Origin: Argopecten irradians
Taxonomy: Eukaryota; Mollusca; Bivalvia; Pectinida; Pectinidae
DNA length: 64,000 bases
Assembly (NCBI RefSeq): GCF_041381155.1
Contig: NC_091137.1
Span: 21,621,655-21,685,654, forward strand
Direction: 5' to 3'
The notes under the pieces are model-generated. The model was not told the DNA's origin, did not search any database, and was given only the letters and a program-made list of their open reading frames with translations. A program made the translations under genes and the position numbers. Of this stretch, positions 3,511-50,100 are shown in pieces; positions within the stretch are counted from its first letter, which is position 1, and each line of letters starts with the position of its first letter.

Positions 3511-3733
3511 ATTGTTATTATACCAGACTTGGTATACCAAAATATGTTAAAAACTAATTAAGAAACTGAAAAGTTCTTTATATAGGCAGATGAGCATTAA
3601 GACCTGTTGGGCTCCTTGCATAATATACAGCTTCATTATTAAGTTTTTAACAAATACCTTAGATATTTTTAGTTAATTCTATTTGAGTTCATTGTGAAAC
3701 ATATTGATCAGTGTTACTTTGTTTTACTTTCAG

Positions 3734-6700: not shown

Positions 6701-9700
6701 TACTCCCAAATGTACAAATGCCGTTGTTGCAAGTGCTGAGTGCCAACCAGTTGTCTGCAGCCTCTAATCCTACTATGCTGGAAAAGACACCTGGCTGTAA
6801 CATCCAACAACAGCCCTACCCAATACAGAGCCAGGCTGATATACAAGCACTGATTGGTCAGCTTCAGGCAGGTCTCACCCAGGTGGGCACACCTCTGAAC
6901 ATGATGAACGTCCAACAGGTGTGGAACAACCTGACCACGGGCAGCAACCTGACTGCAATGCAACTGCAGACCTTGCAGCTTCAACAACAGTTACTACAAC
7001 AGATTCAGCAGCTACAAGGGATGCAGACCCTTATCAGTCAGTTTAACATGCAGAGTAACCCAAGTAACCCGATCAGTAGTGTGGCTAACAAGACTGCCAC
7101 CACCACAGTCAGCAATGGCCTGTCAGCTGTAGCCATAACTACAGGAAATAATACAGACACCTGTCTTACCATGGATGGCAAAACTTTTCTCACTCATCAG
7201 GTGACAGGAGGAGAAAGCATTGTTCTGCCTGTGAGAACAGATGTAACTGTGCCAGATCTTAAGACGGACATACCAACATCAAGAGTTGTGAGCAATACAG
7301 TTAATAAATCCGACTCTTTTGATACTGCATTTAAGAGAGAAGAAGCCCAAATAAGTGAAAGTGAAGATGGCAAGCCTAATGTGAGTTCTTCAGTACTGGA
7401 ATGTAATAGTTCACTTTCTTCAGACATGCTGCCAAGTGTACAAACATCTGAAGTGCCAACTTCTACTGCTGCATCTTTCTGCAGTACACAGTCCACTCAA
7501 TCAACTGCAAGTGTCGAGGCCTGCCATTCTGTCCTCTCTTGCACTGGTAGCCATAAGATGTCCGCAGATGATTCTATCAATGGTACACAGTGCTCACTTG
7601 TTACAACTTCTTGCATCACAGACCAGGACCTGTCTCCTCAAAGTAGCAATAATTCATCTGTTTCTGTCAATTCCAATAAAGCAGAAGATTGCAGTGCTTT
7701 GGATGAGAATATGGATATCTCGGATAAAACTGTATTGCAATGTAAACCATCAACATCAACAGAGAAGCAGTCCAGTTGTGACAGAATGTCTGACAGTAGA
7801 ATCTCAGTCTCACCCAGGTCATCAGAATCAGTGGTTAAACAGACTCCAAACAAAGACACGTCATGTCATTCCACCTCTAAATGTGAAGATTTCCTCCAAA
7901 ATTCAAGTACTAAAGTTAGCAAGGATTCCTCTCCAAGTACGACACCACAGATTGCAGACCCATGTAGAATATCAGACTCCTCAAATCTAGAAATCAGGGA
8001 TGGAATCCAGGAAAATCACCCACGTCCTCAATTAGGTACTGTGTCCTCAACAGTTGGAGCCATCAACAAGACGGACAAGATTCGTCCAAAATCTAGTCCA
8101 GAACATGATCCCAGCATCGCTGAGAAACCAAAAGAGGCTAACCTTCCCTCAGATGTTGCAACCAAGTCTGACCTTGGTCACCGGGTCGAGGTCAACTTCT
8201 TCCAAGCCAACCATCTACTGAACACGGTGGAGCTCTCCAGTGAACGTGCTCAGAAAGCTGCTGATGCTCTCACTCTCGTCAACAGAGCGAGCAAGCGATC
8301 ACGCGAGATAGACACAGACTCCTATGATGATGGTATGTAAAAGATTATGTTATTGAAGATTCCTTATTGATAAAAATAATGTTAAAATATGTCTTCAAAT
8401 AATAATAAATTTGACCGAGACTTATTATGATCTCAAAATATGGAATCTGTACAAATTCTATAGCTGTGCCAATTTCATTTAAAAACCATAATTCTGTAGC
8501 ATATCTAAATCTATCAATATTGAAAATATCATATCATCTACAGTGTAATTTCCCGAAACGGAACGTTCTCAAAACCGATCACCTCTATTATTTACCTATG
8601 TAGTTGTCAGATAACGTAAATTATCTGTATGAAGAAACCAGAGCCATGTATTGTTTTATCATATAATGCCCGGCATTGACTAATCATCGTGTAAATAGAC
8701 CATATTTAATTTGATTCTTGACGTAACCGGAAGTGATCTGCAGTATGTAGGTTAGGTAATTCAGGCGAGAACATCCCCAAGAATATTCACGCAACTAACT
8801 ATGTTTATAAGCGGTAACAAAGTCAAGATTGTTGTAATCTATTCCTTTTAATCGTATGATTTTCTCTTTTGTGATAACATTTACATTAACAATTAATATC
8901 TGTCGGTTATAATGAACACTGGGCAGTATAGTGTAGTGTAGAAAACGACTTCTGATCAATAAAATCCAGATCGTAATGATCAATATTCAGTTCACTTCTC
9001 CAAACCGAACCCTCTCTAAAATGGCCGAAATTTTATGCACCGACCATGATCGGTTTAGGGAAGTTCCATTGTAGTATGGGGGACAATTGGTAACCATTTA
9101 ATTATTCACTATAGCAGAATAATTCATAATTGTTTTGTCCAGCATGTCAGTATAGTGGAATATTATTACATTATACAGAGGACAGTTCCTCATCAGAGAT
9201 GTCCCCTTCTTCCTACCCACACAACTTCACTACGGGCGACCTAGTATGGGGACAGATCAGAGGCTTCCCATCCTGGCCTGGCAAGGTCGTGGACGAGAAA
9301 GAAGTGAAGGAAGGCCACACACCTGATGCTGGCAAGGTAAACTTACACATACACCAATACTTCTATCCTCAGTGAAAATGACTGTCATCGGCGCTAACAT
9401 TTGTGTTTGACAAAGTTATTCACATCCGCATTTGGTCAAGTTACTTCTGTATCAGTCAGTACACATAAACAAAGATAAAAACGGGCATTCAATATTTGGG
9501 AGGTTGGGGTAGAAAACCCAGAAATTTGAGAATTTGCAATTAAATTCTCTTTTGACAATATTAATCACATCCAATTGAACTGAAACTTTTGTCAGGTTTT
9601 GTCAGAACACATGAGCAAAGACATTGTTAATATTGAAGGACTTAAGATTTGATTTACAGCTACAAAAGAAACAAAATAATTTGTGTTACCTCTTGGTTTC

Positions 9701-17293: not shown

Positions 17294-20200
17294 ATGGCTT
17301 TGGCATGCCAAAGAAACAGCTATCTACGAGAGGTAAGCTTTTGTAACAAATTCCGTGTTTTTTCTTTAAGATATATCTTATGTTAAAAATCTTCTATCCA
17401 GCTCAGAGTCATGACAAGGAAGGATTAACATAACCCCGATTAGACTTGTCAAAAATTTCACCAGATGTACAGTAAGAGCTGTTCTGAGCAACTCAGGTTA
17501 ACATAAGATCATCTGGTATTTTGTTATGCACAACATATCTGCATATTTATATATAGGTAACAGTATTATGGTATTGATAGTTGTCAATGTTGAGACGATT
17601 AAAACAATAATTTGAACTATGAAAAACTTATAATATGAACAATTACATATATGGGTCAGAGATGCCTATTGCACATTTAAAGATCTCGACGACATGTCTC
17701 AGGTATGTAACGTTACTTACTTAAGTTGGGTAAAGTTAGCCATAAATCAATTTGAAAAATAAATATAATAAATCAACTTTATGGTAATAATTTTTCCCCA
17801 TAATTTTTTTAATATCACATTCTATCTATAATTTTAATAGCCTAAAATTGTAAATATAAGGTATAAGTGAGTATGATCAAGGCCCTGAACAGTGGTGAGG
17901 GATGTTTATACAATCTAATTGAAATTTTATCAAGTCTTTGTCGCTCCCCGTACACTGTAGTGTCCACTTGTAGAAACTCGAGCGACATAGAAGATCTGTT
18001 TTTAATTAGATTGAACACTTATAGGTCATGAGCCTAGATAATGTAGTCTGTTTTGATAGAATTATTCCAATAATATTAAACGTCAATATTGAGAAACTTC
18101 TCATTTGATGGGCAATATACATGACGTAGTGATCAAAAGTGTTTTGTCGTGCTATACCTCTAACATTGTTGGAGTAGGATAGAATGTGATTATATCATAC
18201 ACATATTACATTTGTATTTGTAAAAATGCAGTAGAGCAATGGAGGGTATTATCGTCGGGTTAAGGATCTTTGGGTAGAATGTAATTATATCATATACATA
18301 TTACATTTGTATTTGTAAAAATGCAGTAGAGCAATGGAGGGTATTATCGTCAGGTTAAGGATCTTCGGGTCATAACAAAGTCATGTCACACAGTTGACTT
18401 AAAAATGTGATACTGCTGTCTTCATCATTATCCGTGTTTTTAATAAGTGCGCTCGTTTTCAGCTATATCGTGATAATAAGGGAGAATTCATTATTTGCAC
18501 TTCCGTTGAATGGAAGCAGTTATCGTCACATGAAGGCAGTTATCTTCAGTCTTTGTTATTTCACCTATTAAAAGTACATTTTCTCACCTTGTGCCACGTT
18601 TGTAAACTGATTCATGTAAATATTGCATACACAATTTGAAGACAATGTTGATATTTACTGGTTCTGGTTTATTGATGACAATTGACACATATTAGTGAAA
18701 CCACGATTCACCAGAGGTATTTTGTTGACAGAGACTTCCTCAGGTACATGTAGTTAATACATCAAATAATGAATCCTTTCTTGCATTTATAAATATTGGC
18801 AATGAAATGCTAGTTTATGTAGTTCTACACTCACATTTATTAAAAACAAATAGTTCATTTAATTTCCAATGAAAAGTTGTTAAATAATATAAGTTAATAA
18901 TTATGTTTATGTAAAATCATGTGCTCTGTTAAAGAAACATAGACCATGGTATATGGTTCTAATATAAGCTTGTATATCCATTCAATGCCATTCTGATCAT
19001 GACTTGAGCAGTATTTATTTTTACAAGACGATAGCTTTATGGACATCATGACATATGGATCTGTCTTTATTAATCATAATTTGTAAACCAAATAAAAAAT
19101 TCCATTTTTTTTCCAATGGTAGGATTCATTCCTACTGCCCATATGATAATTTTCCTTTAGAGACATTCCATCTTTAAGTTAGAAAATAAACCATAACAGA
19201 AAACATGATCTATTTAACATTAACTATATAATTAGATGTATTTATTGACCTTTTTTGTTTCTCATTGTTACATCGCGAACTTCATGTAGATATAGATGCC
19301 AAATACCTACGTGCATTTGGTCCAAGACATGAAAGTGAAAGTAAGGTTCCAAATATAGTAACATTTCTCTACTTTATGTCCAATAATTTAAGATTACAAG
19401 TATTATTCCCTTTGATTTCATTAATTTTTTTTTTTTTTTTTTTGAGAATTGTATATATTGAGATCCTTCTTTTTTTAAACATTTTCTATTTAATTTAGAA
19501 AACTGACGATAACTGCCTCCAATGTACGATGTGAGTTAGTTATCGCCATGCCCATTTACAGCATTGAGGTAGCCTGGATGTACACAGAACGCTAGTCAAT
19601 TTAGCAGACGCTCTAGAACTTGGCATAGATAATGTATATTCTTGCATTTGTTTTACGATTTTGATCTCTTAAGGAAATTAAAAGCATTTTTGACTGACCT
19701 TATGTAAACGTATATAAAGGTTTGAACATCAAATTACAAACAGATAAAGCTTTTCCTGAATGACAGTAGGGTCAGAAAGTTTCTGGAGGAACAACATTTT
19801 GTTTTGATGAAAACTATAGCGACCGAAGTGTACCATTTATCAAAATAATTTTAAATTAAGGAAAAACTGCCGCTGACGATAATACCCTCCATTGCTGTAT
19901 ATATTTTTATTTGGTACTATGTATCTTTTATTTAACTACATATCTAAATTTAATGGGTTAAAACATTATTGTACATTATTTTAAAGTTCAAATCAAGGGT
20001 GAAAAGTTGCACCCCAGCAGAATCTACACTGGTGACCAATGGCAAAAAGGATAAAGTCAAAGGTTTTCATGTCATTTTGGAAGATACCATTCTGTTTCCT
20101 GAAGGGGGTGGTCAGGTATATTTTATCTTTTCTTTTAAGAAAATACCAGTTAAATGTCATTCATACACAATTCTTTAAAAGTGATACAGTTCATGTATTA

Positions 20201-23200
20201 AAGAAATCCAAATATCATTTTGCAAACCTCATATTGTAGTGAATTTTAGATGAAATTTCAGAAGTTCAATGTTTTTTAAAAATGATACATTTCTTAAGTA
20301 CATGTATTTCTTTATTGATGATATTAAGGAAATATGGTTTTCTATTTCAGCCTGATGACAGAGGAATTGTACGTATACAAAACAATAACTTTTTAGTGTC
20401 ATGCAGTTCATATGCATGTAGTACTGTTAGGAAGATTTGTAAATCACCTTCATCAATTGCATTGAAACAATTTTATATTGAATAAGAAAAAAATCTGAAG
20501 AACTATTGATATTTGACCAAATGCAAATTCATACAGATTGAATATCTTTTGTGACTGTATTTAATGTCTTGTATAACGTAACTAAACTAAAACTTACGAT
20601 TTTCACATGAGAATCATGACAGAATAATAAGCAAAAACATCATCAGATCCATGGATAAGTCGCAGTAGTGTAGAAGTCGCACTCCCGATTTTCAGGGAAA
20701 AAAGTCGCAACTTATACTCCAGAAAATATGGTAAATCAAATTCAATGAAAGGCCATCAAAATCATGCTCAACAAGAATTTGATATTGATTTGGGATACAT
20801 TTCAGTTCGGTCAGTAAGCCACTGCTAACCTATACAACTGACAGAGTGAGGGAAGTATAACTGATATTGGATCCATTTTACAATCATTCTCTTACAACAG
20901 CAATGCAAACAGGGTTGACAAGTAAATGATGCATGTCCCTTCAGCCTCTTAATACATACAAATAGATAGTAAAAGATATACTGGTAGGTAGTGTTTATTT
21001 GATAAGTTTTTTAATCTTTAAAGAGACAATTCACTCAGGCAAATTCTTTTACATAACCAATAAGCAAACTATAGCATAAATGTATTGTTCTACATTTCTT
21101 ATGAAACATATAACGTAAAACATTGACAAATTCTACAACTTTGTTAAGTATTTTAATTAATATCGTTGAAATATCAAATCGTTGATCAATACGATTAAGC
21201 AGGTACAATATTAACTCTGTACCCATACCCAAGCCAAAGTCACGCACGTTAAACAAATGAACTACATAACCACTGAGAAGGTGATAAAATGATTTTTAGG
21301 CAAGACAATTCACCTAATAAGGTAAACACACTACTGTCAGAGCGATTTCAGCAGTTCTAGCCAAAAGTTGCATTACTTTACGAGCAAGGGACAGGGTTCG
21401 GCATACAAGAAGTTCGACCACAGTGTGTAATGGCGGACAGCGAGCAAGTTTGAATATTTCACACATGTGTCACCACCATAGGCGTTTCAGGCATATCACA
21501 GTAAAACCAACTGATGTAATTTCCATTAGAACTGGGTTTTTTCTGATATATATACAAATTTTAATGTTCTCTTAGACTGAATTGTCCCTTTAAGTTAAAT
21601 TCACATAATAATACATGTACATAGATGACAGATATATAGATTATGATGTTTTTAATGGAAGGGCTCTTTTCATGGCAAACAGATAAACAACATAGATGTT
21701 CTACGTATCACAAGGAAAGGGGCAGAGGCTTTGAATTTTGTGACAACAGAAATCGCTGTTGACACTGAGGTGGACATGAAAGTCGACTGGACACGAAGAT
21801 TTGACCACATGCAGCAGCACACAGGTAGGTAAACCAAATGGTGTCAGATCTGAAAACATAGACAAAACGGTGTCAGATCTGAAAACATAGACAAAATGTT
21901 GTCAGCACTGAAAACTTGGACAAAACAGTGTCAGCACTGAAAACTTGGACAAAATGGTGTCAGATCTGAAAACTTGGACAAAATGGAGTCAGCACTGAAA
22001 ACTTGGACAAAATGGTGTCAGCACTGAAAACTTGGACAAAATGGAGTCAGCACTGAAAACTTGGACAAAATGGTGTCAGATCTAAAAAAAACATAGGCAA
22101 AATAGTGTCAGATCTGAAAACATAGGCAATATGATGTTAGATATGAAAACTTGGATAAAATGTTGTCAGCACTGAAAACTTGGACAAAATGGCGTCAGAT
22201 CTGAAAACAAAAACAAAATGGTGCCAGATCTGAATACATAAACAAAATGGAGTCAGATCTGAAAACTTGGACAAAATGGTGTCAGATTTTAAAATTTAGG
22301 TAAAACACAATGGGAAGCTATAATGACTCTAACCTTAAACATCTACGATATGTGAGGGGAACGAGGGATATAAAGTCTACTAGTTTGCCTGTTGTAATTG
22401 TGTAATTGAACATAGATAATAGTATATTGATTAAGAATTTATTTGTTGCTTTGGCTTTAGGTCAACACCTCATCACTGCTCTGGCAGAACAAATGTTTGG
22501 CTGTGCAACTACCTCTTGGTAAGTAGAAGATGACAACACCTTCATCACCTTCATTATTAACCCCCCTCAACAAAGTTAAGAGTTGAGATGGGGTAGAGAG
22601 CATATACTGAATTCAAGTTGTCCATTTGTCTGTCTGTAGACAATGATAATCCAACTACGCCTCCTAAACTACTCAAGAGATTTCAGTAAAACTTGTGTTT
22701 TAGACTACCACTACTAAACTACTAGAGGGATTTCAGTGAAACTTGTTTATGCATATTAGATAGGATATTTATCTTCTATTACAATACCTGCAGGTGTTTG
22801 GGTGAGAGGACATCATTTATAGAGTTAGATATTCCAAACCTGACTGAACAGGATGTTGCCAAACTGGAGGAAGTAGTCAACGAAAAAATTCTGGCAGAGA
22901 TTCCAGTCACTCCTCATGTGTTTGAGGATAAGAATGATCCCAAATTAAAAGAAGTAAGGAACTTGTCCAACAATCACTCATTATGATAATTGCAATATTT
23001 AATTTATATGTGTGTTGAATATCTAACAACCATTTCATTACAGTGGAGATATCCTGATCATGATATTAAGTCATTTAAAAAGCAGGTTATGGATTTTTGG
23101 GTGTCAAGATGAACAACAGAAAGAAAGAGTTATAGACATAAGGTTGAGAAAGTACAGATTGAAAGCAAATGTTGTTGATCTCAAAGATCAAATGTAAAGA

Positions 23201-26200
23201 ACAGTGGAGACATTTTGCTTTTACTTGTACTCCCTCCCCCGCAAGATAGTATGGGGAGATGGGTGGGGAGGGGAGTATACGGGATTCAAGTTGTCCATTA
23301 GAGTTTTGCCCCCTTGTTAAAAAAATGATTAAAAGATTATTCCTCCTAAACTGCTGGAGTGATTTTATTGAGACTTTATGGCAATGATTCATCTACAGTG
23401 AAGATATATGTAATTTATATTAGATTGAGTGATCGTAATGATAGCTAAGACAAATGAAGTTTCAATATGATATACAACTTTTTCTACCAACAGTACCGTT
23501 GTCGAGGGTTACCAGATGACCACGTGGGACCAGTCCGAGTATTGGACATTGAGGGGATTGATGGTGGCACACTATGTTGTGGAACCCATGTTTCGAATCT
23601 CTCACATTTACAGGTTAGTGATAACATTTTTAAGCTTTTTCTTGTTACAGTAAATACTTGAATCAAATGACAATTTCAGATATAACATGGTTTAATAGCA
23701 AATATTAACTGAGATCACTAGTTACATAATCTGTTATTATTTAAAGTTGTATGGTGAGCATTGAAAAGGCGATTGTTATGTTTGATTAATCATAAGTATG
23801 CACTATCCATGTACCTATATTCTGCAATTTGCAAAATTGAATTTGAATTTGAACTTGGTGTCTGATTCATTTTGCAGCTGATAAAATTGCTTTTCTCAGA
23901 AAAAGGGAAAAAGAATAAGACCAACCTACACTTTGTTGCTGGAGGCCGTGTGAGGAAATACCTGTCTCGAAGTGTACAGACGGAGCGATCACTTACAGGA
24001 TTGTTAAAGTATGGTCATACATCATATTATGTATGATATCTGAAAAATGTAATGGATTATAAAGTATGATATGGTCATAAATCTTTTTCATGTAACTGAT
24101 CTGTTCAACCATGTAATACGACCATGTCATAAATATTGTAAAACACATGTTTAATAACATTGTTGTGACTTCACATGTTATAATGATGTCATTTTCAAAA
24201 TATGATGTCGCACAAGTCTCGGTAGATTGAAACTTCAAATCTGAGCCTGATTTGGTCATTTGTTATTTACATGGTATATGTTATTTCAATACCATCAATG
24301 GAATATCCAGAATTATTTTTGTGTATTATTGTGTTTCGTCTCCTTATCTTGTTTAACTGTTAACTTCAGGTTTCCGAGAAAAATTGGATGAAATATGTTT
24401 GGAATTTCTTCATTATTAACATCCGGTCTTACACATGTGGTTACATAATATGATACTTATGAAAGGAGCTAATTATTGAACTTATTCAAAAAATTTCATA
24501 TTACATAGCCACTCATGTAAGGTTCTCTATAGGTAAGTGTCTTAAACTTGTAAAGGATTTCTTTGACTTAACTTTAGACGGGAAATTGACCAATAGTCAT
24601 TGTCTCTATATATCAGTTTTGGCTGAAGCAAATAAATTCTTCTTTATTGCTGTTCAACAGATAAGCAGCACAGATCTATTTGGCCTGTTGTGTCAAATTG
24701 ATGGAAACACTGTTACTCGTAATAAAATATTGTCAACAACTCTGATCATATACAATCCTAATTTAGTAGAGAACTTATAGACTGATAAATGTTGTTCAAT
24801 TCGTTTCTTTGTGAATAAAATATACCGGTAGTTGAAATTGAATAAAATTATATTAAAATATGTTAGCCTATAATGCCCATCATGTATAGATCCCACAATT
24901 ACCTATTTAGTACTATTTGATCTGTGTGCTGTAAATGATGTTGTATATTTCAGAGGTCCATTAGATCAGCACTTCGACTTAGCTGACAAAGCAGTGAAGG
25001 GATTTAAATCCTGTCAAAAGGTAAATATGTCTCCTTCGCACACTATATAAAAAAAAGTAAAATAGTTCATTATTCAGAATTCATGGTTGGATAAATATTC
25101 TGAGTGTTTTGATTTTAGGCGATACCTGTTTGTTTTGCTTTAGTTAATAACATATTTAAGGTAATTTTTCACTGCAAAATATCGAAAGCACAAAGTTTAA
25201 TCAAAGCTTTCTTAATCATGGGATTTAGCATTTTCATAACCACATGTAGAAATTTTACAGAATATGAATAATTTACACATTGTTTTTATGAAATGAATGT
25301 GAATATTTAACACTTTTGTTTGACAGATTGTGAATAACTAACATTTTTTTTATGAAATTAATGTGAATAAATTACACTTTGTTTTACAGAATGTGAATAA
25401 TGTACACTTTGTTTTACAGAATGTGAATAGCTTACACTTTGTATTACAGAATATGAATAATGTACACTTTGTTTTACAGAATGTGAATAATGTACACCTT
25501 GTATTACAGAATGTGAATAACTTACACTTTGTTTATAACTTACATTCTGTATTAGAGAATTCGAATAATGTACACTTTGTATTACAGAAAGTGAATAACT
25601 TACACTTTGCTTTACAGAATGTGAATAACTTACACTTTGTATTACAGAATGTGAATAATTTACACTTTGTTTTACAGAATTTGAATAACTTACACTTTGT
25701 TTTAAAGAATTTGAATAACTTACACTTTGTTTTACAGAATGTGAATAATGTACACTTTGTATTACAGAATGTGAATAACTTACACTTTGTTTTACAGAAT
25801 GTGAATAACTTACACTTTGTTTTACAGAATGTGAATACCTTACTGAAAGATCTGGCTGTATTAGAAGCCCAGAAATTCAAGTCTCTGAGTGAGCCTGATC
25901 AACTGTTCGTGTTGCATCGGTAAGTTGTGTAAAAAGAGAATTGCTGTTTTATAAACACAGAAATAAAAATCTCTGACTGACCCAGATCCAATGAATGTGC
26001 CTCGGGCAACAGTTGTCCATAGGTCTTCCCTGCTTCCATATATTTTATCTACATGGCTTTTATTAAATGTGGATTTTAAAAATATATATATATATTAAAG
26101 AAATCATGAAAAGATAACTTCTATTTTAATCTGCCTCAGTACTTATTGATGAGTTTCAGTTGGGTGAATAGATAAGGTCAATTTTTTCAAGAAAATATCA

Positions 26201-28689
26201 CTACTTTGTCAATGATATTGTGCTAATATCTTTTTGTCTTATTCCTGTTTTAACTTGTTCATGTAATGAAAACCTAATTAAGTTAAACTAGCACCTAATG
26301 ACCTGTAGATATGATTTATCATTCAACAGGAGAGAAGGTGACAATGACTTCATGAATATTGTTGTACGAGAAATCAACGACAAGGTAAATTTCATCACGA
26401 GACACACCTTGACTCTTATACTGTACAATTGTTACAGGATATGTTTTTCACTACACGAAGACAAACCAAGCATGTCAGCTATGAACATGTTTCTATAATC
26501 TAGAAAATGTTGTAGTTGAAAGGGACAATTCAGTCTAAGAGTACATTAAAACTTGCACATATTCTAGCAACAAATTAGTTCTAATGGAAATTAGATTAGT
26601 TGGTTTTACTGTGATATGCCAGAAAAATCCACTGTAGTGAAAAGTATGTGAAATGTTCAATTGCCATTACACATAGTCTTGTATGCCGATCCCTGACCCT
26701 TGCCTGTGTAGTAAAGAATTTTGTGTCTAGAACTACTCAAATCGCTCTTACAGTTGTATTAACATTGTTAGGTGAATGTTCTTGTCTAAAAATAATTTCA
26801 TCTACTCCTCAGTGGTTATGTATTGCATTTGTTAAACGTGCATGACTTGACTCGGGTAAAGGTACAATGTACATGTTGTACCTGCTTAACCGTATTGATC
26901 AACAATTTGGAGTTTCAATGGTATTAATCACAATACTTAACGATGTTGAGGAATTTGTCCCTTTTTCCTGTCATATGTTTCATAAGGAATGTAGAACAAT
27001 ACATTTATGTCACATTTTGCTTCGTGGTTATGTAATGAATTAGCCACACTGAATTGTCCCTTTAAGGAAACATATAAATATGGATTTCCAACATTATAGA
27101 CAAACTTTCTGTTCACAAAATGTTTATAATACAATAGCTAACCTCTTAAACATTTGACTATTCATTACATATTATTCTGGTAAACAAACTGAACATTATT
27201 TAGATACACTATTTCACATCTGTTGCAAAGGTATATATATATATATCAAAAATGAAAAAAACTTGAGACTTCATTTCAAGGCCTTTCTGCCTTCACAGGC
27301 GCCTTCAGGTGGATGTATATAATAAAATAACAGCACTACAGAACGAGAAAATCATATTGATCACACGTCATATAAAGCCGACTTTTTATTGAGATTGCTT
27401 CCTTGGAAGAAATACAAAGCTTACTTTCAAGTGTTGCCTATTTTCAAAACCGGCATATTTTCAAGATGCATTTGATTGTAGGAAACATTTGATTGTAAGA
27501 AATACAAGGCTTATTTTCAAGGCCAGCCCATTTTTTATTTAGGCTTATTATCAAGATTTTAGGGTATATGTACGTGTAAATTAGTACTTGAGATATTAAT
27601 GCACATACTTCCCCATTACAGAATGTCAACTGCTACTTGACAGTTGGGGATGATAAAGGGGCTGGACTGTTCCTTCTGTCAGGGCCAGAGGATATACTAA
27701 AGGAGGTGGGGCCAAGGTAAGGGATATCTGTGTGAGGTGGGGCCAAGGTAAGGGATATCTGTGTGAGGTGGGGCCAAGATAAGGGATATCTGTGTGAGGT
27801 GGGGCCAATGTAAGGGATATCTAAGTGAGGTGAGGCCAAGATAAGGGATATCTATGTGAGGTGGGGCCAATGTAAGGGATATCTAAGTGAGATGAGGCCA
27901 AGATAAGGGATATCTGTATGAGGTGAGGCCAATATAAGGGATATCTGTGTAAGGTGGGGCCAATGTAAGGGATATCTAAGTGAGGTGGGGCCAAGATAAG
28001 GGATATCTGTGTGAGGTGAGGCCAAGATAAGTGATATCTGTGTGAGGTTGGGCCAATGTAAGGGATATCTAAGTGAGGTGGGGCCAAGATTGGGGATATC
28101 TGTGTGAGGTGGGGCCAAGGTAATGGGTATCTGTGTGAGGTAGGGCCAAGGTAAGGGATATCTGTGTGAGGTCGGACCAAGGTAAGGGATATCTGTGTGA
28201 GGTGGGGCCAAGGTAAGGGATATCTGTGTAAGGTGGGGGCCAAGGTAAGGGATATCTGTGCAAGCTAGATATGGCCAAGGTAAGGGATATCTGTTTGAAG
28301 AGGAGTTTAAGTAGTGAGTCAATTATGTCTGCTTCAACATTATTTATTGATTAAAAGGTTTAAATTTTGATCAACCTGAAACAATGTCTTCTTTAACAAA
28401 AATTCTGAAAATATACAGGAAGTGTCAGCTTCACTGTTTTGGATAATTGCTAAATACCACAAAATGTTATCACAAACAATAAATACGGTATTATTGTCTG
28501 TGATGTATTTAATACCAGTAATAAATATTGTCTCGTAGGATGGCAGAGATCATGGACGGCAAGGGGTCAATGAACCGTGGCAATTTTCAAGGAAAGGTCA
28601 ACAAACTAGGTCAAAGACACAAGGCAGAGAAAATCCTCAGAGAGTTTCTGCAGCAAAGTCAACAACAGAGTCAAGCCAATGAGAGCTAA
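17294..28689 (+). CDS. AARSD1: Alanyl-tRNA editing protein AARSD1 (AlaX-type), complete, 13 exons
   Basis: Coding exons: 17294-17332, 19987-20115, 20351-20368, 21683-21824, 22461-22518, 22794-22953, 23494-23613, 23878-24008, 24954-25020, 25828-25919, 26330-26384, 27622-27716, 28539-28689. They join in frame to 418 residues, near the ~412 of the human protein. AARSD1 is a free-standing editing factor that hydrolyses mischarged Ser-tRNA(Ala) in the cytosol. Visible motifs: N-terminal MALACQRNSYLRE; LEDTILFPEGGGQPDDRG (about 45-61); zinc ligands HMQQH (104-108) and the C-C-G-T-H motif (210-214), which form the HxxxH...CxxxH site of the editing/SAD domain; and the C-terminal GDDKGAGLFLLSGP segment. 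All zinc residues are intact. Three introns carry minisatellites at exon borders, and introns 1, 3 and 11 carry transposons. The start is the first ATG before a good donor and matches the family N-terminus. Confidence 0.97.
18181..18365 (+). repeat. 95-bp tandem duplication of a transposon left end
   Basis: The segment beginning TAGAATGTGATTATATCATA recurs 95 bp later with few differences (GTCGGGTT/GTCAGGTT, CTTTGGG/CTTCGGG), duplicating the terminal GCAATGGAGGGTATTATCGT. Confidence 0.85.
18320..19902. mobile_element. DNA transposon-like element with 23-bp perfect inverted termini in AARSD1 intron 1
   Basis: 18331-18353 (GCAATGGAGGGTATTATCGT + CAG) is exactly reverse complementary to 19873-19895. 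Subterminal motifs (GCAGTTATCGTC, GACGATAACTGCCTCC) are also inverted. No transposase frame is visible. The left end is tandemly duplicated: a 95-bp unit gives a second left-terminus copy at 18236. The family was not identified. Confidence 0.65.
20351..20368 (+). CDS. AARSD1: 18-nt micro-exon 3 of AARSD1
   Basis: The exon follows TCTATTTCAG and ends before GTACGT. It encodes PDDRGI. Joining exon 2 (ending FPEGGGQ), this exon and exon 4 (starting INNIDVLRI) aligns without gaps to the human protein as I recall it (GGGQPDDRGTINDISVLRV). Skipping it would stay in frame but remove six residues of the conserved loop. Confidence 0.88.
20586..20731 (-). mobile_element. Second single-ended pogo-like fragment, inverted, in AARSD1 intron 3
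   Basis: The reverse complement reads CCATATTTTCTGGAGTATAA, then GTTGCGACTTTTTTCCCTGA, and continues similar to 12157-12310 for about 145 bp. It is flanked by TA at 20732-20733. The two copies differ by scattered substitutions, so neither is recent. Confidence 0.7.
21017..21594 (+). mobile_element. MITE copy 1 (~575 bp) in AARSD1 intron 3
   Basis: Ends TTAAAGAGACAATTCA and TGAATTGTCCCTTTAA are inverted repeats. The interior matches the copy at about 26520-27066 in the opposite orientation (for example CTTAGACTGAATTGTCCC and ATCACAGTAAAACCAACT). No coding frame. Confidence 0.8.
21834..22300 (+). repeat. ~29-bp minisatellite beginning next to AARSD1 exon 4 donor
   Basis: Tandem units such as GGTGTCAGATCTGAAAAC + TTGGACAAAAT (variants GCACTGAAAAC, CATAGACAAAAC) start about 10 nt into intron 4, whose donor is at 21825. 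The units do not copy the donor itself but abut it. Confidence 0.9.
22600..23390 (+). repeat. Two related ~130-bp dispersed repeat copies in AARSD1 introns 5 and 6
   Basis: Around 22610-22740 and 23270-23375 both contain ATTCAAGTTGTCCATT, then a spacer, then CTCCTAAACT followed by a GATTT(C/T)A motif. The copies flank exon 6. Family unknown. Confidence 0.5.
25252..25845 (+). repeat. 30-bp minisatellite repeating the 3' splice site of AARSD1 exon 10
   Basis: Roughly 17-19 tandem units of 30 bp lie in the end of intron 9. Each unit is close to AATGTGAATAAC followed by TTACACTTTGTTTTACAG, that is, the first bases of exon 10 joined to the pyrimidine tract and CAG of its acceptor. The last unit is the real intron/exon junction at 25827/25828. 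Units near 25260-25380 are more diverged. The period is a multiple of three and the array is open in the exon's frame, encoding repeats like NVNNLHFVLQ. Confidence 0.95.
26520..27066 (-). mobile_element. MITE copy 2, inverted relative to copy 1, in AARSD1 intron 11
   Basis: Starts AAAGGGACAATTCAGTCTAA and ends CTGAATTGTCCCTTTAA. Internal matches to copy 1 read in reverse complement over most of the length with moderate divergence. Confidence 0.8.
27690..28290 (+). repeat. 31-bp minisatellite repeating the 5' splice site of AARSD1 exon 12
   Basis: About 18 units of 31-32 bp run from the end of exon 12 into intron 12. The unit reads GAGGTGGGGCCAAG then GTAAGGGATATCTGTGT. The first copy is the true exon end (donor GT at 27717), and most later copies keep the donor consensus CCAAG/GTAAGG, some with AAGATAAGG or CAATGTAAGG. 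The array ends about 250 bp before exon 13. Confidence 0.95.
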
Positions 28690-29229: not shown

Positions 29230-32200
29230 TCGTAAGTGATACTAAGGTCTACACGCGACAGACATGGAGAGAGGACGTATTGTACGTTATAAACTTCTCG
29301 ACATAAGGAGAGATATAACCAGTTCATGCCTTGATCTCTTCTGCTGCCTCACGTGGTCCATCCATGATATTAGTCCAGACGGGTGTGCTGTCTACAGTGA
29401 CTTCTTGGGGTTACAGAGGTATCTCGGGGAGGATTTTGATTCTTGGTCCTCAACACAGACACCATGTCAATACGTATTGGTTGCCACTTTGACCCTGTGT
29501 TTCCATTTGTCCTTTGGTAAGAGGGTTATCCAGACGATCAGACGCCGATGGTAATGAATATCTTGCTAACAGATGCGGCACGTGTGCAAACCACATATTA
29601 CTGCTGCTGTTCTTGATTGCTAACTGACGTCTGGCAATGTCATACTCAGCTGAGTTCTTTTGTCTGAAGGTGGAACCAAACTAAGTAAGAGCCTTGATGT
29701 CAAGAGCGATATCGATGAGAGTTGCACCTAGGAGCACATAGGTTGCTGTATTGCCGCAGCGGTCTGGTAGAGATTAGAGTCTTTTGCTCAGATGTACGGA
29801 GAGTTGAGATTTATTAAGTTGTCCGATGTGTAGTTTTTAGCCCATATATGGCCCTTGGTCTGTTGAAGACAGTGTACATTTTGTAGGAGATAAGAGGGTT
29901 GAGTTCATTTTTCCCATGCATGCCAGCCCCAAACATAGCATACAGGGCTTTCCGTCCCTCCGTTATCCGTTCGTCTATGCCACCAAACCCTTTACTTGAG
30001 GATCTGATCTGAGAATACCTTGGTGCGTAGCAGTTTTAGCTTCAGGAGTTGTATTGTTACCTATTGCACAAGTCTGTTCTCTGTTTTAATGTTGTTGTAT
30101 ACCACTATCTCACTTTTGACAGTGTTGATAGTGAAACGATTCCTGCTGGAGAATTAGTGGTTACCATATGAGTCCTGTCTGAAGATCTATTGGCACGTTT
30201 GCCAAAAGGGCGATGCCTTCTGCTACAGTGGGAGCCCCTATGTAGGTCGTCCATATACTGGCGCCAATACTATGTCTCGCCGATGCATTGGGTAGATCGT
30301 TGTTGTATGCCTTATATAGGGTGGGTGACAGCTTGGTTCCTTGTTGGATGCCCTGTAAGTTTATAAAGGTGTCGGAGAGTTGGTTAGACCACTTCACTCG
30401 TGTTGAGCCGCTAGTCTGAATGTTGATTTGGTCAAGTTTTATTAAGTAGGTGTTCCTGCCACACTACGTCAAACGCCTTAGCTGAATCCAAAATGTCAAA
30501 TGCCGGCGGGATGTTACGATCCTTAGATTTAGATTCATTATTAGCTTCTGTAACTAGAGCGCAGCGTTGTTGCTTGAGGTGTTGTTCGTGAAACCACGCT
30601 GGAGAGGGTTCTGCGTAGATGTGACGCTTGCCTCAATGGAGGGATGGATAGCTTGTCTCTAACACTTTGGATATTGCTGGAGTAACAGTGATTCCCCGAT
30701 AGTTTCCTGATAGAGTTTAGTCTTTCTTCAGAACTGGTGTAAAATTCCGGTTTTCAGTAGTGAGGAAAGTTTCCTTAAGTCGATGATATGGTTGGATATG
30801 TCTGTAAGGCGGTGAATGATAGGCTGTCCTCCATATTTGAGGTGTTCTGCAGTGATGCCTAGATGCTCTGCTGCCATGTTGTTGGTGAGTTCATGTACAG
30901 CTTTGTGGATGATATCTGGTGTGAATATCTCTATCCGACTAGAATAGATAATGTAGCATATATATATTTTAGACTGTAGCACATTAAAAAGTACTTTGTC
31001 GTAGAAGGTAGCGTCAAAATGTGCTTTTGATGAAGTCGTGACAAGGGCTTCGTAGTGATCTTTCCAAACCATAGTAATTTCTTCTTCGCTATTCAGCTTT
31101 TGCCGTCATAACCGGCCGTGTGTGGTGGGCCGGTTTTCCGTTGCATGGTTATGGTTTTATTCGCTCAGTATTCGCTCAGTTGACATCATTGGTTAGCTGA
31201 GGCTAGCTTGTGGAGATGTATTAAAAGTTTCTTCAAACAATGACATAATGTACTCCTAACGCGTACTATGGACTTCCGGTTATATATACAGCCATTTCAT
31301 TAATGTTGGGATCCGTTTCCGTCGATAATGGAAACATGAGATACATGTATATATTGAAGATACTGATACAAATATAAGTGCCAGACACTGATAAAATAAA
31401 TTCACGGGTTAAAAAGTTTCCATAGATTTATAGAATATCAAAGCGTTTACTGTCCATTCCTGTGGGTATCCTTTTTTCAGATTTGTACAATTTTCTCAGA
31501 AGAATGGCTGAAATTTTGCTGGGTCGTTTTTCCAGTACACATTGATTCTTGACTTGAAGGTGTTTAGAGATGGTGAACACACCACTTCCTCTGGTAGAGA
31601 ATTCCAGATGTTGATAACTCTGTTGCTTAAGAAATGGCCCGATTTTCTCAGTCTAAATTGCCTCTTAAAGAGTTTTCTGGAGTGCCCCCTAGTTGAAGTT
31701 CGTCCGATTTCATCGAATAATGAGTCAATGTTCAGTATGTCCAAATTATTTAGAATTTTATTAGTTTGGGTGGTATCTGCCCGTTCTCTACGATATTGAA
31801 ATGTTGGTAGACTCAAATTTTTTAGGCGATTTTGGTAAGGAAGATGTTTTAAACACTGTATCCTTTTTGTTGTTCGCCTTTGTACGTTTTCAATTATGAT
31901 AATGTCTTTGACCAGGTGAGGTGAGGATACTGGTGTTGCGTATTCCACAATTGGATGATAAGGAATTTGTAAAGTGCCAGGAACATTTGAGGGCTCATAT
32001 ATGAGAAAGATCTAAGTAATAAACTGATGATTTTTGAGCTTGACGAGTTGGTATGAATTGAGAATTGCAGGTTTGGTCAATGTTCACTCCTAAGTCCTTT
32101 TCTGATCCCACTTTTTGTACTGGTATTGCGATGCCATCTTGCCTAATAGTATAATCATTGTTTCCCTGAGATCTGCCAATCTCCAGGTATTTACATTTGG

Positions 32201-33430
32201 ATGTGTTTAGTTGCATGAGCCAGGTCTGTGTCCATCTACACATTTGGTCTATGTTGTACTGCAGGATTTGCCTATCAACTTTGTGTCATCAGCGAAAAGT
32301 TTAATTGTACAGTTTAGTATGTCTAGCATGTCATTGACATAGATCAAAAAGAGGACTGGTCCTAGTACACTCCCCTGTGGTACTCTACTTGTAACTGGAT
32401 GGGGTTCTGATATTGCTCCATTTACCAATACTCGTCCAGTCATTTTGTCAAGAAAAGCTTTGATCCATCCCAACATTTTACCATTGATTCCGTAATGTTT
32501 TAATTTATGCAGAAGGAATTTTTTGTTAGGAGTGAAGAGGTTGTTGGTATCCATATAAGCTACAATTTCATCCCTTACTATCCATTGCAAGATTAGATGG
32601 AACTGATGATTAGCTAATTGTTCTGTAATTGCTAGGATCATTTTTGCTCCCTTTTTGAATAATGGAGTGACTATGTCTTCTTCCCATGCTGATGGTAATT
32701 TACAGTTTTGTTGGGACTTCTTAATAATTTTTAAAGGTCCTTCCTTTAAGTTCTTCTGCTGTCTCGGTTATGAACACTCTGTTATCCTTCTCGGAGGCTT
32801 GCATTATATCAGAATTTAACTTCGTACGATTCATTGTAATGTGAGTTCTAACTTGGCGCTGCAGCTAGCGTTTACTACTTATGAACAGAGCGGGGGTTAT
32901 TTGGGTCCTATAGACTTACCAAGTTTCTTCCAGGCTTTATGAGCCTTCCTAGACAGTTTACTGGCTAAAGCTATCTTTTCAGCCCAATGGATGGAGCTCT
33001 TCTTCCGAATAGTGTTGGATCTCCTGCCCTCCCTCCCAGAGGAACAGTCAGCTACTGCGTGTATGGGTCTATGGTAACGCAGATTATGATTTTGTAAGAT
33101 GTGGTATACTTCGTGGCTATCTCCTGCAACTCGTTGATAGTATATTTGAATTGAATCACTGAACTGACTCTGCCTCTGAAGGGAAGGTATGTTGTTACCA
33201 AGCAGATTTTTAGTTCCCATAGTGGTAAAATTTTGCAGGCAGCAATCTTTGTCCTTCCTCCATGGTATGGCAACCCCTCCATAAACTCGTGTACCTGTTA
33301 CCTGTCGTCGAGGTCTATTATCATAGTAATATAGGCGGTCGTCGCCTCTCTGACAGTATTTCTTACTTGCGATACGCTCCATATGGGAGAGAGGATGATC
33401 GTCTTCTAGCCTAATGATCTAATTATACAC
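29230..33430 (-). mobile_element. Degenerate non-LTR retrotransposon (LINE A), interrupted by a second LINE
   Basis: On the minus strand, 33382-32897 encodes an endonuclease-linked segment (GGVAIPWRKD ... AEKIALASKLSRKAHKAWKK). Reverse-transcriptase pieces resume at about 31105 (EEEITMVWKDHYEALV, AEHLKYGGQPIIHRL), then GIQQGTKLSPTLYKAYNNDL (30161-30397), where the usual catalytic ADD is degraded to GAPTVAEGIALL. The C-terminal part (YSLPSASDRLDN, CVEDQESKSSPRYLCNP in shifted frames) extends to about 29230. Stops and frameshifts are many; the copy is dead. Confidence 0.8.
31110..32860 (-). mobile_element. 5'-truncated CR1/jockey-like LINE (LINE B) nested in LINE A
   Basis: Minus-strand frames 32641-32249, 32243-31995 and 31948-31496 are consecutive parts of one reverse transcriptase. 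Motifs: VPQGSVLGPVLFLIYVNDM, the catalytic FADDTK, thumb-type NTSKCKYLEIG ... EKDLGVNID, and the C-terminal LFKRQFRLRKSGHFLSNRVI and IWNSLPEEVV. Two frame breaks separate them and the 5' endonuclease part is missing. LINE A sequence lies on both sides, so this insertion is younger than LINE A. Confidence 0.8.
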
Positions 33431-44170: not shown

Positions 44171-47100
44171 TTACAAATTAGATGAGCTGACTCTCCGAGC
44201 ATTGATGCTTGCCAGTAAGGCATTTCTGTTCGGTGTTGTAGGTGGTCTGTCTGTATTGGCACCACCCCCGGGCTGGGGAGGCCCTCCCATGGGGGGTGGG
44301 CCACCCATTGGCTGAGGGGGCCCTCCAATAGGTGGTGGTGGGCCGCCCATAGGCTGGGGAGGGGGTGGGGGCATCCTAGTCATAGACTGGTAGGATCTGT
44401 GGGGTGAATGTTGGGTTGGACCAATGGAGGTGTAGGATGTCTGCCTGTGAGAAGACAAGTGAGTCTTCAAGTTTCTAGCTGATCGAGATGTTCCCGTCTT
44501 GGATGATTTCCTCTCAGTTAAGTTGGTATCTGATTTTTTTTCTTTCTATAATTTGAAAAAACAATACATCAATTTTGTCTTAATTAAAATGAGTGGTGTG
44601 CTACAGTAAGTGGAAAACAAGTATTTATTTACACATACGTTTGTTATGTTAAGTTTATTATGAGGAGCAATATTGAAAAGATACAGTAAAATAAGTACAT
44701 TTTTTACTGAAAAAGCGTGCTTTTGCAGTATTGCTACTGCCCGGATGACCCACTAATTTAAATGCGATTGACCTCTCATTTGCATGCGATTTTTTCTCTT
44801 TTCCTCTTTCTAGAACAAATATGCTGCCATAGTGCAGTTTAATTGTAATAAACAACTTCTATGGCATTTCATTAAATAGAATAGTTTCAAACATGTCTAC
44901 AAAAACTATAGCATGAACGTCTATAATTGAAAAATAGTGAGGATAATTTGCATCAGTGGTAGCGATAGGTGGCCTAATTCTCGCCAGTCATTTGCATATA
45001 TTTATGTAAACATCCGGTTTGGGTAACACTAAATAAAGGAATTGTCAGGATTTTGGTATGTAAGTATCTAATTGTACGTTGATGTATACATTCATAATCT
45101 ATTATATAATGACAATTTTTTTATTTCTGTAAGACAAGTAACTTAATGTTATAAGAAGATAAAGACTTACCTTTGCCTTGGTAGCATTTTTCTGATGACG
45201 CACACAGCTGCAACAACAAAAGAGGCTCATGTAAAGATCAACAACAGTCTGAGTAAATAGTTTGATTTTGGTTTAGTATTCTATTGCTTACATTGTCATA
45301 GCAAGGGTCATTTAGGGTAGAAGGTGGAGGGAAGCCAGAGTATCTGGAGAACTACAACCTGAACTGTCATCAGCACCTGGTAACTACTAGAACATGGGAA
45401 TCCAACTCGCGACTAAGAGAGGAAGGGCTTGACTTGTTGTAATATGTCTAAACCCTCAAATAATTAAAATCAAGATAATTCTCATGAGAATGTAATATAT
45501 GTACCCCGCCCAAGGCTGCGGCATCATTGCCCTTAGAAGTGATGTGGAAATGAAGATAGCGCTGCGAGGTGTCCATTGACTTGCTTCTGTTACAATGACA
45601 TAAAAAGATCTGATGTGAGTGTGATGTACTAACCTCATTATGGTCTGGTTAAGATGCCACTATTACCTTTCTGATGTGAGTGTGAAACTGTGTGAAGTAC
45701 TAACCTCATTATGGTCTGGTTAAGATGCCACTATTACCTTTATGATGTGAGTGTGATGTATTAACCTCATTATAGTCTGGTTAAGATGCCACTATTACCT
45801 TTCTGATGTGAGTGTGATGTACTAACCTCATTATGGTCTGGTTAAGATGCCACTATTACCTTTCTGATGTGAGTGTGATGTACTAACCTCATTATGGTCT
45901 GGTTAAGATGTCACTATTGCCTTATAGTATGTATTGTCTAGTGCTGGAATCCCTCAACAATACTAGACAATAGCCTCTCTCAACCAGGCCATAATAGATT
46001 AATAGAATCTTACATGGGCTTGTCAAGAGGACAGGGATATCTCAACCCGAGTGAAATATTTTGGCTGGTCAACCCGAGGCTTGGCGGGAGTTGATGGCCA
46101 ATATCTTTCACGAGGGTTGAGATATCCCTGTCCACTTGATAGACCCATGTTTGATTCTTTTTCTCCCATACTTTCACAAAGCATTATGAAAATGAAATTT
46201 TAGAAACATTTCCAAAGCGCCGCCATCATTGGACAGTTGCAGTGTGTCAAAATTATTGAAGCCGCTGATGATAGACGCTGCATGCATGTCTTGATGTGAC
46301 TTAACATATAGCGGCGATAATCAGCATGTGTCTTGGTGTGACTTATCATATAGCGGTGATAATCAGCATGTGTCTTGGCCAGACTTACCATATATAGCGG
46401 TAATAATCTGCATGTGTCTTTGCCAGACTTACCATATAGAGGTGATAATCAGCATGTGTCTTGACCGGACTTACCAAATAGCGGTGATAATCAGCATGTG
46501 TCTTAGCCAGACTTACCATCAAGTGGTGATAATCAGCATGATGTGACTTACCATATAGCGGTGATAATCAGCATGTGTCTTGGCCAGACTTACCATATAT
46601 AGCGGTAATAATCCGCATGTGTCTTTGCCAGACTTACCATATAGAGGTGATAATCAGCATGTGTCTTGACCAGACTTACCAAATAGCGGTGATAATCAGC
46701 ATGTGTCTTAGCCAGACTTACCATCAAGTGGTGATAATCAGCATGATGTGACTTACCATATAGTGGTGATAATCAGCATGTGTCTTGGCCAGACTTACCA
46801 TATATAGCGGTGATAATCAGCATGTGTCTTGGCCAGACTAACCATAAAGCCGTGATAATCAGCATGTGTCTTGGCCAGACTAACCATATATAGCGGTGAT
46901 AATCAGCATGTGTCTTGGCTAGATTTATCATATAGCGGTGATAATCAGCATGTGTTTTGTTGTGACTTACCATATAGCGGTGATAATCAGCATGTGTTTT
47001 GTTGTGACTTACCATATAGTGGTGATAATCAGCATGTGTCTTGTTGTGACTTACCATATAGTGTTGATAATCAGCATGTGTCTTGTTGTGACTTACCATA

Positions 47101-50100
47101 TAGCGGTGATAATCAGCATGTGTTTTGTTGTGACTTACCATATAGCGGTGATAATCAGCATGTGTCTTGGCCAGACTTACCATATAATCGTTATTACCAG
47201 GATGATAATTAGTACAAAGATGGCAGCCAGTTCTGTGACAGCCAGATCAGCATAGTTCACATTTTCATCCTCAAGGATAGTAGCCACAGCTGATGGTACA
47301 TGTTTGGGTGAATTCGGCTGGGTCAAGGTCAGTTTACCTTGTAATAAAATTTTAAATTTTTTTTTAAAAATTGTCAAATCTCCTTAATTTGTTGAATTAC
47401 CATTCCTTGATTTCACATTAATGGCATCCATAGTTAAATCTACATATTATATTTAACTTGGTAACAATCAAAATCGATGTAAATTAGCATTTTTCCATAT
47501 ATCAATAGTAGTGTGAAATGACCTCAGTACAGCAATAATTAACAAATAGAACTATAATCACTAGTGGTGTGTAAAAACATATTTACCACAAACAAGAGTC
47601 ATGTTAAATCTAAACACAACATCATCCTTCTTTGGCTTTGTGCTCTTGCTTTTATAGGAAAAGTGGACACATTTGAAGAGTCCCTCGTCTTCACAAGGTA
47701 GGAGTGGGATGTGTAAGGTGAAGGATGCGGTATCACCTGGAAAATACAGGAAATCAACATCACATGGTAATCCTGTTCATCAACACTGTCCAACGAGGAA
47801 ATCAACATCACATGGTAATCCTGTTCATCAACAGTCCAACGAGGAAATCAACATCACATGGTAATTCTGTTCATTAACACAGTCCAACGAGGAAATCAAC
47901 ATCACATGGTAATCCTGCTCATCAACACAGTCCAGCGAGGAAATCAACATCACATGGTAATCCTGTTCATCAACACAGTCCAACGAGGAAATCAACATCA
48001 CATGGTAATCCTGTTCATCAACACAGTCCAGCGAGGAAATCAACATCACATGGTAATCCTGTTCATCAACACAGTCCAACGAGGAAATCAACATCACATG
48101 GTAATCCTGTTCATCAACACAGTCCAACGAGGAAATCAACATCACATGGTAATCCTGTTCATCAACACAGTCCAACGAGGAAATCAACATCACATGGTAA
48201 TCCTGTTCATCAACACAGTCCAATGAGGAGATCAACATCACATGGTAATCCTGTTCATCAACACAGTCCAAGAGGAAATCAACATCACATGGTAATCCTG
48301 TTCATCAACACAGTCCAACGAGTAGATCAACATCACATGGTAATCCTGTTCATCAACACAGTCCAATGAGGAAATCAACATCACATGGTAATCCTGTTCA
48401 TCAACACAGTCCAACGAGGAAATCAACATCACATGGTAATCCTGTTCATCAACACAGTCCAACGAGTAGATCAACATCACATGGTAATCCTGTTCATCAA
48501 CACAGTCCAATGAGGAAATCAACATCACATGGTAATCCTGTTCATCAACACAGTCCAAGGAGGAAATCAACATCACATGGTAATCCTGTTCATCAACACA
48601 GTCCAACGAGTAGATCAACATCCCATGGTAATCCTGTTCATCAACACAGTCAAATGAGGAGATCAACATCACATGGTAAACCTGTTCATCAACACAGTCC
48701 AAAGAGGAAATCAACATCACATGGTTATCCTGTTCATCAACACAGTCCAACGAGTAGATCAACATCACATGGTAATCCTGTTCATCAACACAGTCCAATG
48801 AGGAAATCAACATCACATGGTAATCCTGTTCATCAACACAGTCCAACGAGGAAATCAACATCACATGGTAATCCTGTTCATCAACACAGTCCAACGAGTA
48901 GATCAACATCACATGGTAATCCTGTTCATCAACACAGTCCAATGAGGAAATCAACATCACATGGTAATCCTGTTCATCAACACAGTCCAACGAGGAAATC
49001 AACATCACATGGTAATCCTTTTCATCAACACAGTCCAACGAGTAGATCAACATCACATGGTAATCCTGTTCATCAACACAGTCCAATGAGGAAATCAACA
49101 TCACATGGTTATCCTGTTCATCAACACAATCCAACGAGGAAATCAACATCACATGGTAATCCTGTTCATCAACACTGTCCAACGAGGAAATCAACATCAC
49201 ATGGTAATCCTGTTCATCAACACAGTCCAGCGAGGAAATCAACATCACATGGTAATCCTGTTCATCAACACAGTCCAACGAGGAAATCAACATCACATGG
49301 TAATCCTGTTCATCAACAGTCCAACGAGGAAATCAACATCACATGGTAATCCTGTTCATCAACACAGTCCAACGAGGAAATCAACATCACATGGTAATCC
49401 TGTTCATCAACACAGTCCAACAAGGAAATCAACATCACATGGTAATCCTGTTCATCAAAACAATCCAACGAGGAAATCAACATCACATGGTAACCCTGTT
49501 CATCAACACAGTCCAACGAGGAAATCAACATCACATGGTAATCCTGTTCATCAACACAGTCCAACGAGGAAATCAACATCACATAGTAATCCTGTTCATC
49601 AACACAGTCCAACGAGGAAATCAACATCACATGGTAATCCTGTTCATCAACACAGTCCAGCGAGGAAATCAACATCACATGGTAATCCTGTTCATCAACA
49701 CAGTCCAACGAGGAAATCAACATCACATGGTAATCCTGTTCATCAACAACAGTCCAACGAGGAAATCAACATCACATGGTAATCCTGTTCATCAACACAG
49801 TCCAACGAGTAAATCAACATCACATGGTAATCCTGTTCATCAACACAGTCCAACGAGGAAATCAACATCACATGGTAATCCTGTTCATCAACACAGTCCA
49901 ACGAGGAAATCAACATCACATGGTAATCCTGTTCATCAACACAGTCCAACGAGGAAATCAACATCACATGGTAATCCTGTTCATCAACACAGTCCAACGA
50001 GGAAATCAACATCACATGGTAATCCTGTTCATCAACACAGTCCAACGAGGAAAATCAACATCACATGGTAATCCTGTTCATCAACACAGTCCAACGAGGA

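Follow-up and report, generated by a model that had tools for sequence, protein, structure and literature searches.

Tandem repeats spanning exon-intron boundaries have been named 'mirages' in amphioxus, where they occur in Adh3, in the globin genes BflGb6 and BflGb9, and also in PGBD5 and troponin C, according to two reports (PMC3087553, PMC3902484). The mirage of BflGb6 lies on the acceptor side, comprises 3 units in one haplotype and 6 in another, and is homogenised inside but not at the edges of the cluster; its transcripts seemed by RT-PCR to be spliced regularly, and mirage units were proposed as a source of new introns (PMC3087553). Internal tandem repeats in human segmental duplications are also located at exon-intron boundaries and are described as mainly exonic and either spliced out or kept (PMC2812944).

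Here we describe a 30-bp minisatellite which repeats the intron 9/exon 10 junction of an AARSD1 gene of the bivalve Argopecten irradians, situated in a stretch of 64,000 nucleotides of contig NC_091137.1 (the window). Like the amphioxus mirages, it has units that span a real boundary, on the acceptor or donor side, many of them with AG or GT, and like BflGb6 it is an acceptor case. The host is a bivalve and not a lancelet, the unit of 30 bp is inside the range for Adh3 (10-72 bp) and far shorter than that of BflGb6 (150-160 bp), and there are 17 copies compared to 3-6 in BflGb6. In addition, amphioxus mirages were examined through transcripts and haplotypes, whereas the AARSD1 array is known from the sequence of one assembly. 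The human repeats share with it units of approximately 30 bp at exon-intron boundaries that are able to change splicing, but they belong to recent primate duplications and are backed by transcript evidence (PMC2812944). No report of mirage arrays in molluscs was found among the few papers retrieved from an open-licence library.

The exons of the gene span positions 19984-28650 of the window (219984 to 228650 of the joined stretch), with an uncertain exon 8/9 border, and encode a conceptual protein that is partial, lacking exon 1. This protein is matched by tRNA_SAD (2.6e-07) and, over residues 25-397, by the solved AlaRS structure PDB 3wqy (3.4e-13). A match to TIGR03683 (archaeal alanine-tRNA ligase; 2.9e-34, residues 25-389) scores under that model's own cut-off, which is where a fragment-like relative is expected to fall. 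The exons map one by one onto a presumed human AARSD1 sequence. The following features are located around the array on the plus strand (slashes mark exon-intron borders):

25023..25827, +, intron 9 of AARSD1, GTAAAT...TTTTACAG
25253..25827, +, 30-bp minisatellite at the intron 9/exon 10 junction, 17 copies ahead of the exon
25324..25797, +, 13 upstream acceptors of ordinary strength, by percentile against reference acceptors of the same genome
25826..25827, +, AG of the acceptor yielding the conserved protein
25828..25843, +, part of exon 10 common to the repeat unit, 15 of 16 nt matching the consensus
25828..25919, +, exon 10, 92 nt, NVNTLLKDLAVLEAQKFKSLSEPDQLFVLHR, donor CATCG/GTAAGT

Together with the shared exon start, the array extends from 25253 to 25843 with a period of 30 bp, on which Tandem Repeats Finder and a second repeat finder agree; the former gave scores of 315-739 against a threshold of 50, which rules out chance and bears out the presence and position given in the preliminary description. 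Intron 9 is 805 nt long, of which the array occupies 575. That the unit is the junction itself also held true, while the exon part, put at about 10 bases in that description, turned out to be 16 nt long (AATGTGAATAACTTAC; the counterpart in exon 10 itself is AATGTGAATACCTTAC) and is joined to 14 nt of the intron end. In the frame of the exon the consensus unit reads AAT GTG AAT AAC TTA CAC TTT GTT TTA CAG, and each of the 17 copies consists of a polypyrimidine tract, usually CAG, and the 16 exon-derived nt. The true junction, TTTTACAG/AATGTGAATACC, lies at 25827/25828. With 25360-25840 as the query and very common words skipped, a search of the 846-Mb assembly at the DNA level revealed no second locus. 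Stable DNA hairpins are absent from the array, which folds worse than its shuffles (z +2.2).

The array constitutes a ladder of acceptors. Thirteen upstream AGs, ending at 25326, 25389, 25419, 25449, 25479, 25509, 25587, 25617, 25647, 25677, 25737, 25767 and 25797, score between the 49th and the 75th percentile of reference acceptors, and the true acceptor is at the 70th, so the claim of more than a dozen near-identical acceptors upstream of the true one stands. The matrix was built from 67 reference acceptors (58 from myosin loci and 9 from AARSD1) whose borders were set by homology and score, not by RNA. Four other AGs upstream fall between the 1st and 9th percentiles and are weak, the degraded ones being at 25260, 25555/25557 and 25707; many units, but not all, thus carry the splice signal, as in mirages. 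Because the 13 upstream sites are equally good, acceptor score cannot account for the choice of site. Use of the last acceptor gives K/NVNTLLKDLAV, which is in register and without insertion with K/NNLNLLRDLAV of the presumed human protein, the insertion point being at residue 288 of that presumed sequence, compared with 289 given in the preliminary description; this acceptor is therefore indeed the one that yields the conserved protein. The editing-domain matches in Pfam and the PDB stop near residue 235 and the exon 10 junction corresponds to residue 278 of the partial protein, which places the array, as previously suggested, between the editing domain and the C-terminal part.

The reading frame could point to a coding role. 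As had been noted before, the exon frame runs open through the array: 480 nt (25348-25827) joined to exon 10 are free of stops, while the other two frames stop repeatedly, and the copy spacings (66, 33, five times 30, 48, eight times 30) are all divisible by 3. The unit carrying an 18-nt insertion was translated as it stands and is stop-free; the two farthest-upstream copies (25261 and 25327) are decayed, with in-frame stops in their stretch. The absence of stops in the exon frame compares to approximately 1.3 expected (P 0.27). The 14 core units show 30 differences from the consensus. Of these, 18 fall in the 16 nt derived from the exon, or 0.080 per site per unit, and 12 in the 14 nt derived from the intron, or 0.061 per site per unit. 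Both halves thus diverge alike, and there is therefore no sign of coding constraint. Synonymous changes account for 11 of the 30 differences compared to approximately 7 expected, mostly due to one dimorphism common to several units, and this excess leans slightly toward constraint. The two units adjoining the exon are identical to the consensus and divergence climbs upstream, with the far units decayed, which indicates that the array is youngest near the exon. Exon 10 has a C at position 11 that all 17 copies lack, so that homogenisation between the exon's copy and the array has not occurred since this change.

We consider it probable that the array is a 'mirage' minisatellite, that is, a 3' splice site which was duplicated, expanded and pushed into the intron, and whose copies are mostly silent. 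Its unit spans a genuine exon-intron boundary, exon 10 being supported by homology, and its inside is homogenised with the edges left out, as seen from the consensus units near the exon, the decayed far units and the C at position 11. The array therefore has the testable features of a mirage and is of a kind already known, now in another phylum. According to this explanation, 14 nt from the end of intron 9 and 16 nt from the start of exon 10 would have been duplicated in tandem, perhaps through slippage at the junction or unequal exchange across it, and then expanded, so that a whole 3' splice site with branch-point-like A's, pyrimidine tract, AG and exon start would have been copied into the intron; growth would have taken place at the exon end and decay at the far end, a direction that we infer. 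Each upstream acceptor is a good site locally but has just 16 nt of exon behind it before another pyrimidine tract starts, and the last acceptor alone heads the full 92-nt exon with a donor. For this reason, exon definition should pick the last acceptor and the copies would be mostly silent. In minigenes of Reed and Maniatis, duplicated 3' splice sites with truncated exons reportedly lose to the site with the full exon. Judged from the sequence, bulk use of the last acceptor only is most likely, and a last acceptor that is always chosen, one of the two options raised in the preliminary description, would be a better bet than a ladder of isoforms. Three points count against the mirage explanation, namely the upstream sites that score as well as the true one, the 480 nt that are open and in frame, and the slight excess of synonymous changes; a coding role would give the last two as well.

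The last two points, together with 13 upstream acceptors of ordinary strength and spacings that are all multiples of 3, are what could be expected if upstream acceptors were used and multiples of NVNNLHFVLQ were inserted in the linker, with the number of repeats varying between individuals. We nevertheless regard such length-variable isoforms as unlikely, and the idea that the in-frame openness points to them is not supported: the period is divisible by 3 in 5 of 14 junction arrays, as chance gives, the stop-free stretch is also chance-like, and within the unit the exon-derived half shows no greater conservation than the intron-derived half. Moreover, sister arrays with periods of 31, 34, 37, 43, 62 and 89 would break the frame if used, which indicates that this class of arrays as a whole is not built for isoforms. 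The open frame joined to exon 10 would equally fit a coding repeat, with exon 10 starting at an upstream acceptor and the repeats always being part of the protein, but the last acceptor gives a protein like the presumed human one without any insertion, the units contain a pyrimidine tract and CAG, and their exon-derived part is not constrained; this explanation is highly improbable.

Alternatively, the copies might act as decoys that titrate U2AF and slow or regulate the removal of intron 9, with the length of the array tuning AARSD1 expression via intron retention. Fourteen competing acceptors, including the true one, would be suited to this, but nothing in the sequence calls for such a role and similar arrays are present in many unrelated genes, so that we would give it little credence, if somewhat more than a coding repeat. 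Finally, tandem arrays are prone to mis-assembly, but an artefact is hardly conceivable for 17 copies which differ mutually and show graded decay, in an arrangement that recurs in unrelated genes with unrelated units. The mirage explanation also implies that the array is in frame probably by an accident of its period and pyrimidine tract and is not a device for isoforms.

AARSD1 contains a second array at a junction, and another one was found further along the window:

27622..27717, +, exon 12 of AARSD1, NVNCYLTVGDDKGAGLFLLSGPEDILKEVGPR, donor CCAAG/GTAAGG
27703..28298, +, second AARSD1 array, 31-bp unit GAGGTGGGGCCAAG/GTAAGGGATATCTGTGT, 19 copies across the donor of exon 12
46298..47186, -, 42-bp array, 21 copies, over the donor ATTATATG/GTAAGTC

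The 31-bp array, with its boundary at GAGGTGGGGCCAAG/GTAAGG, covers the last located donor of AARSD1 and fills 581 of the 821 nt of the intron after exon 12. The human gene 6-16 (IFI6/G1P3) contains a minisatellite with multiple splice donors (Nucleic Acids Res, 1995, cited in PMC2572611). Some of its copies are reportedly used. Like the AARSD1 array at exon 10 it multiplies a splice site at an exon border; being donor-sided, it is the nearer parallel to the donor array at 27703-28298. The exon at the 42-bp array has a hydrophobic, membrane-like end, is based on an open frame only, and gave no family match in a profile search. Within the 200 kb left of the window, a 43-bp array is situated at the donor of an exon that resembles an aminotransferase (Pfam 0.0033, narrowly missing the cut-off) and a 62-bp array at the donor of an ACE exon (9.1e-21). 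A further 43-bp array, at an aralar/citrin donor, comprises 119 copies of GGAGGTAGGT and nearly fills an intron of 6,675 nt; this aralar/citrin-like intron (111575-118249 of the 264-kb stretch; L014-L015, G000 C4) was also seen to consist almost entirely of approximately 155 copies of its own donor junction.

In 264 kb, at least 6 of 37 arrays span splice junctions. Donor sites of at least 9 bits are present in 8 of the 37 array units compared to 1.6 in letter-shuffled units, and donor sites of at least 10 bits in 6 compared to 1.0, as scored with a generic donor matrix and mononucleotide shuffles; among the eight units at 9 bits, r1 214723 and r1 261810 have no abutting exon, and r1 19266 shares the ACE intron with another. 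After inspection, the window arrays at 57891, 61810, 45690, 47748, 21836 and 14628, the r1 arrays at 19266, 29057 and 191147, and the arrays at L033 3585, L037 6221 and L039 2920 were not counted as junction-spanning. The 29-bp array at 21836-22294 (approximately 16 copies) begins 10 nt into the intron after AARSD1 exon 4, without the donor. Two 74-bp arrays with related units (57891-60280 and 61810-63144) contain a donor-like GGGTAAGC on the minus strand and have no adjoining coding exon.

Since the ACE, aralar and aminotransferase genes had been named owing to their arrays, we sampled ten myosin loci (L031-L040; 77.4 kb), picked by compactness alone from 82 myosin matches. Local tandem copies were found at 7 of 126 junctions in these loci, and the following arrays were recorded:

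L032: acceptor array, 43 bp, 6 copies
L033: donor array, 63 bp, 4 copies
L035: donor array, 37 bp, 11 copies
L036: donor array, 123 bp, 2 copies
L038: donor array, 34 bp
L040: small exon with an array on each side, 89-bp acceptor array of 8.6 copies and 34-bp donor array of 7.6 copies, 2996-4081 (G000 C10:30866800-30873600)

Two more donor arrays, decayed and recognized by eye, are located in L032 and L035. The two copies of 123 bp in L036 (1-330, minus strand) each repeat a donor together with 25 nt of exon, which is what the first step toward a junction array would look like. L035 also contains a near-perfect 118-bp duplication within or beside a myosin exon (3303-3545; LAGGFISHYLLEKSR...), and as 118 is not divisible by 3, its two copies cannot share a reading frame.

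Six exons added by hand, mostly noticed through an array, account for twelve of the 126 junctions, and 4 of the 7 array junctions are among these; for junctions found automatically by tblastn and score, local tandem copies occur at 3 of 114. We therefore put the rate at a few percent; junctions with ladders likely amount to this, with no finer estimate. Whether arrays are enriched at junctions depends on how they are counted. By coverage, where a 24-mer at a junction was scored as repeated if another copy with no more than 6 mismatches lay within 300 nt, there is no enrichment, neither in L031-L035 (3 of 70 junctions versus 5.3-5.9% of 10,719 other positions) nor in L036-L040 (4 of 56 junctions versus 16% of 11,701 other positions). 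Counted as arrays, 7 of the 19 in these loci include a junction, compared to an expected 1.7 (P 0.002), or to 2.0 once approximately 24 junctions of exons that escaped location are added (P 0.005), and with the 114 automatic junctions alone there are 2 spanning arrays compared to 1.55 expected (P 0.46). As only some of the 37 and 19 arrays were inspected at both ends, these junction-spanning counts are lower bounds. The excess depends on the exons added by hand, and preferential seeding of arrays at junctions is thus unproven. It is doubtful, though worth entertaining, that a few percent of junctions carry ladders and that arrays start there preferentially, which would link splicing or transcription to the birth of minisatellites.

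Several other features of the window and the assembly were noted. An open frame of 1,555 codons with a high content of Q and S extends over 3673-8337, and downstream of it, near 9175, lies an exon that we take to be PWWP-like. Broken reverse-transcriptase-like frames of a retroelement were recognized by eye on the minus strand at 30164-33418, and a 154/155-bp tandem repeat with the core AAGATGGCCGCC is present in two places (1904-3408 and 56932-57315). A precursor encoded in the assembly, whose contigs sampled here measure 39-76 Mb, carries six RPGW repeats and three APGW repeats. According to the literature, APGWamide predominates in gastropods and cephalopods, the first residue is variable in the precursors of bivalves, and one scallop precursor contains six RPGW, two APGW and one SPGW. 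The precursor thus points to a bivalve host and away from a lancelet. COX1 gave no match, nor did GFP, for which a negative carries no weight, and a non-muscle myosin exon was not discriminating as to the host.

The AARSD1 array shows that the arrangement known as 'mirage' from amphioxus is not confined to lancelets. Should ladders prove as frequent as they are in our samples, a single animal genome would contain many series of near-identical splice sites differing only in position, and RNA-seq could show how the spliceosome chooses among equals, be it by transcription order, exon definition or distance to the partner site. Through the route from mirage to intron proposed in the amphioxus study (PMC3087553), such ladders also bear on intron gain. 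If preferential seeding at junctions were true, each ladder would amount to a natural experiment on how splice sites are chosen and might also give rise to new introns.
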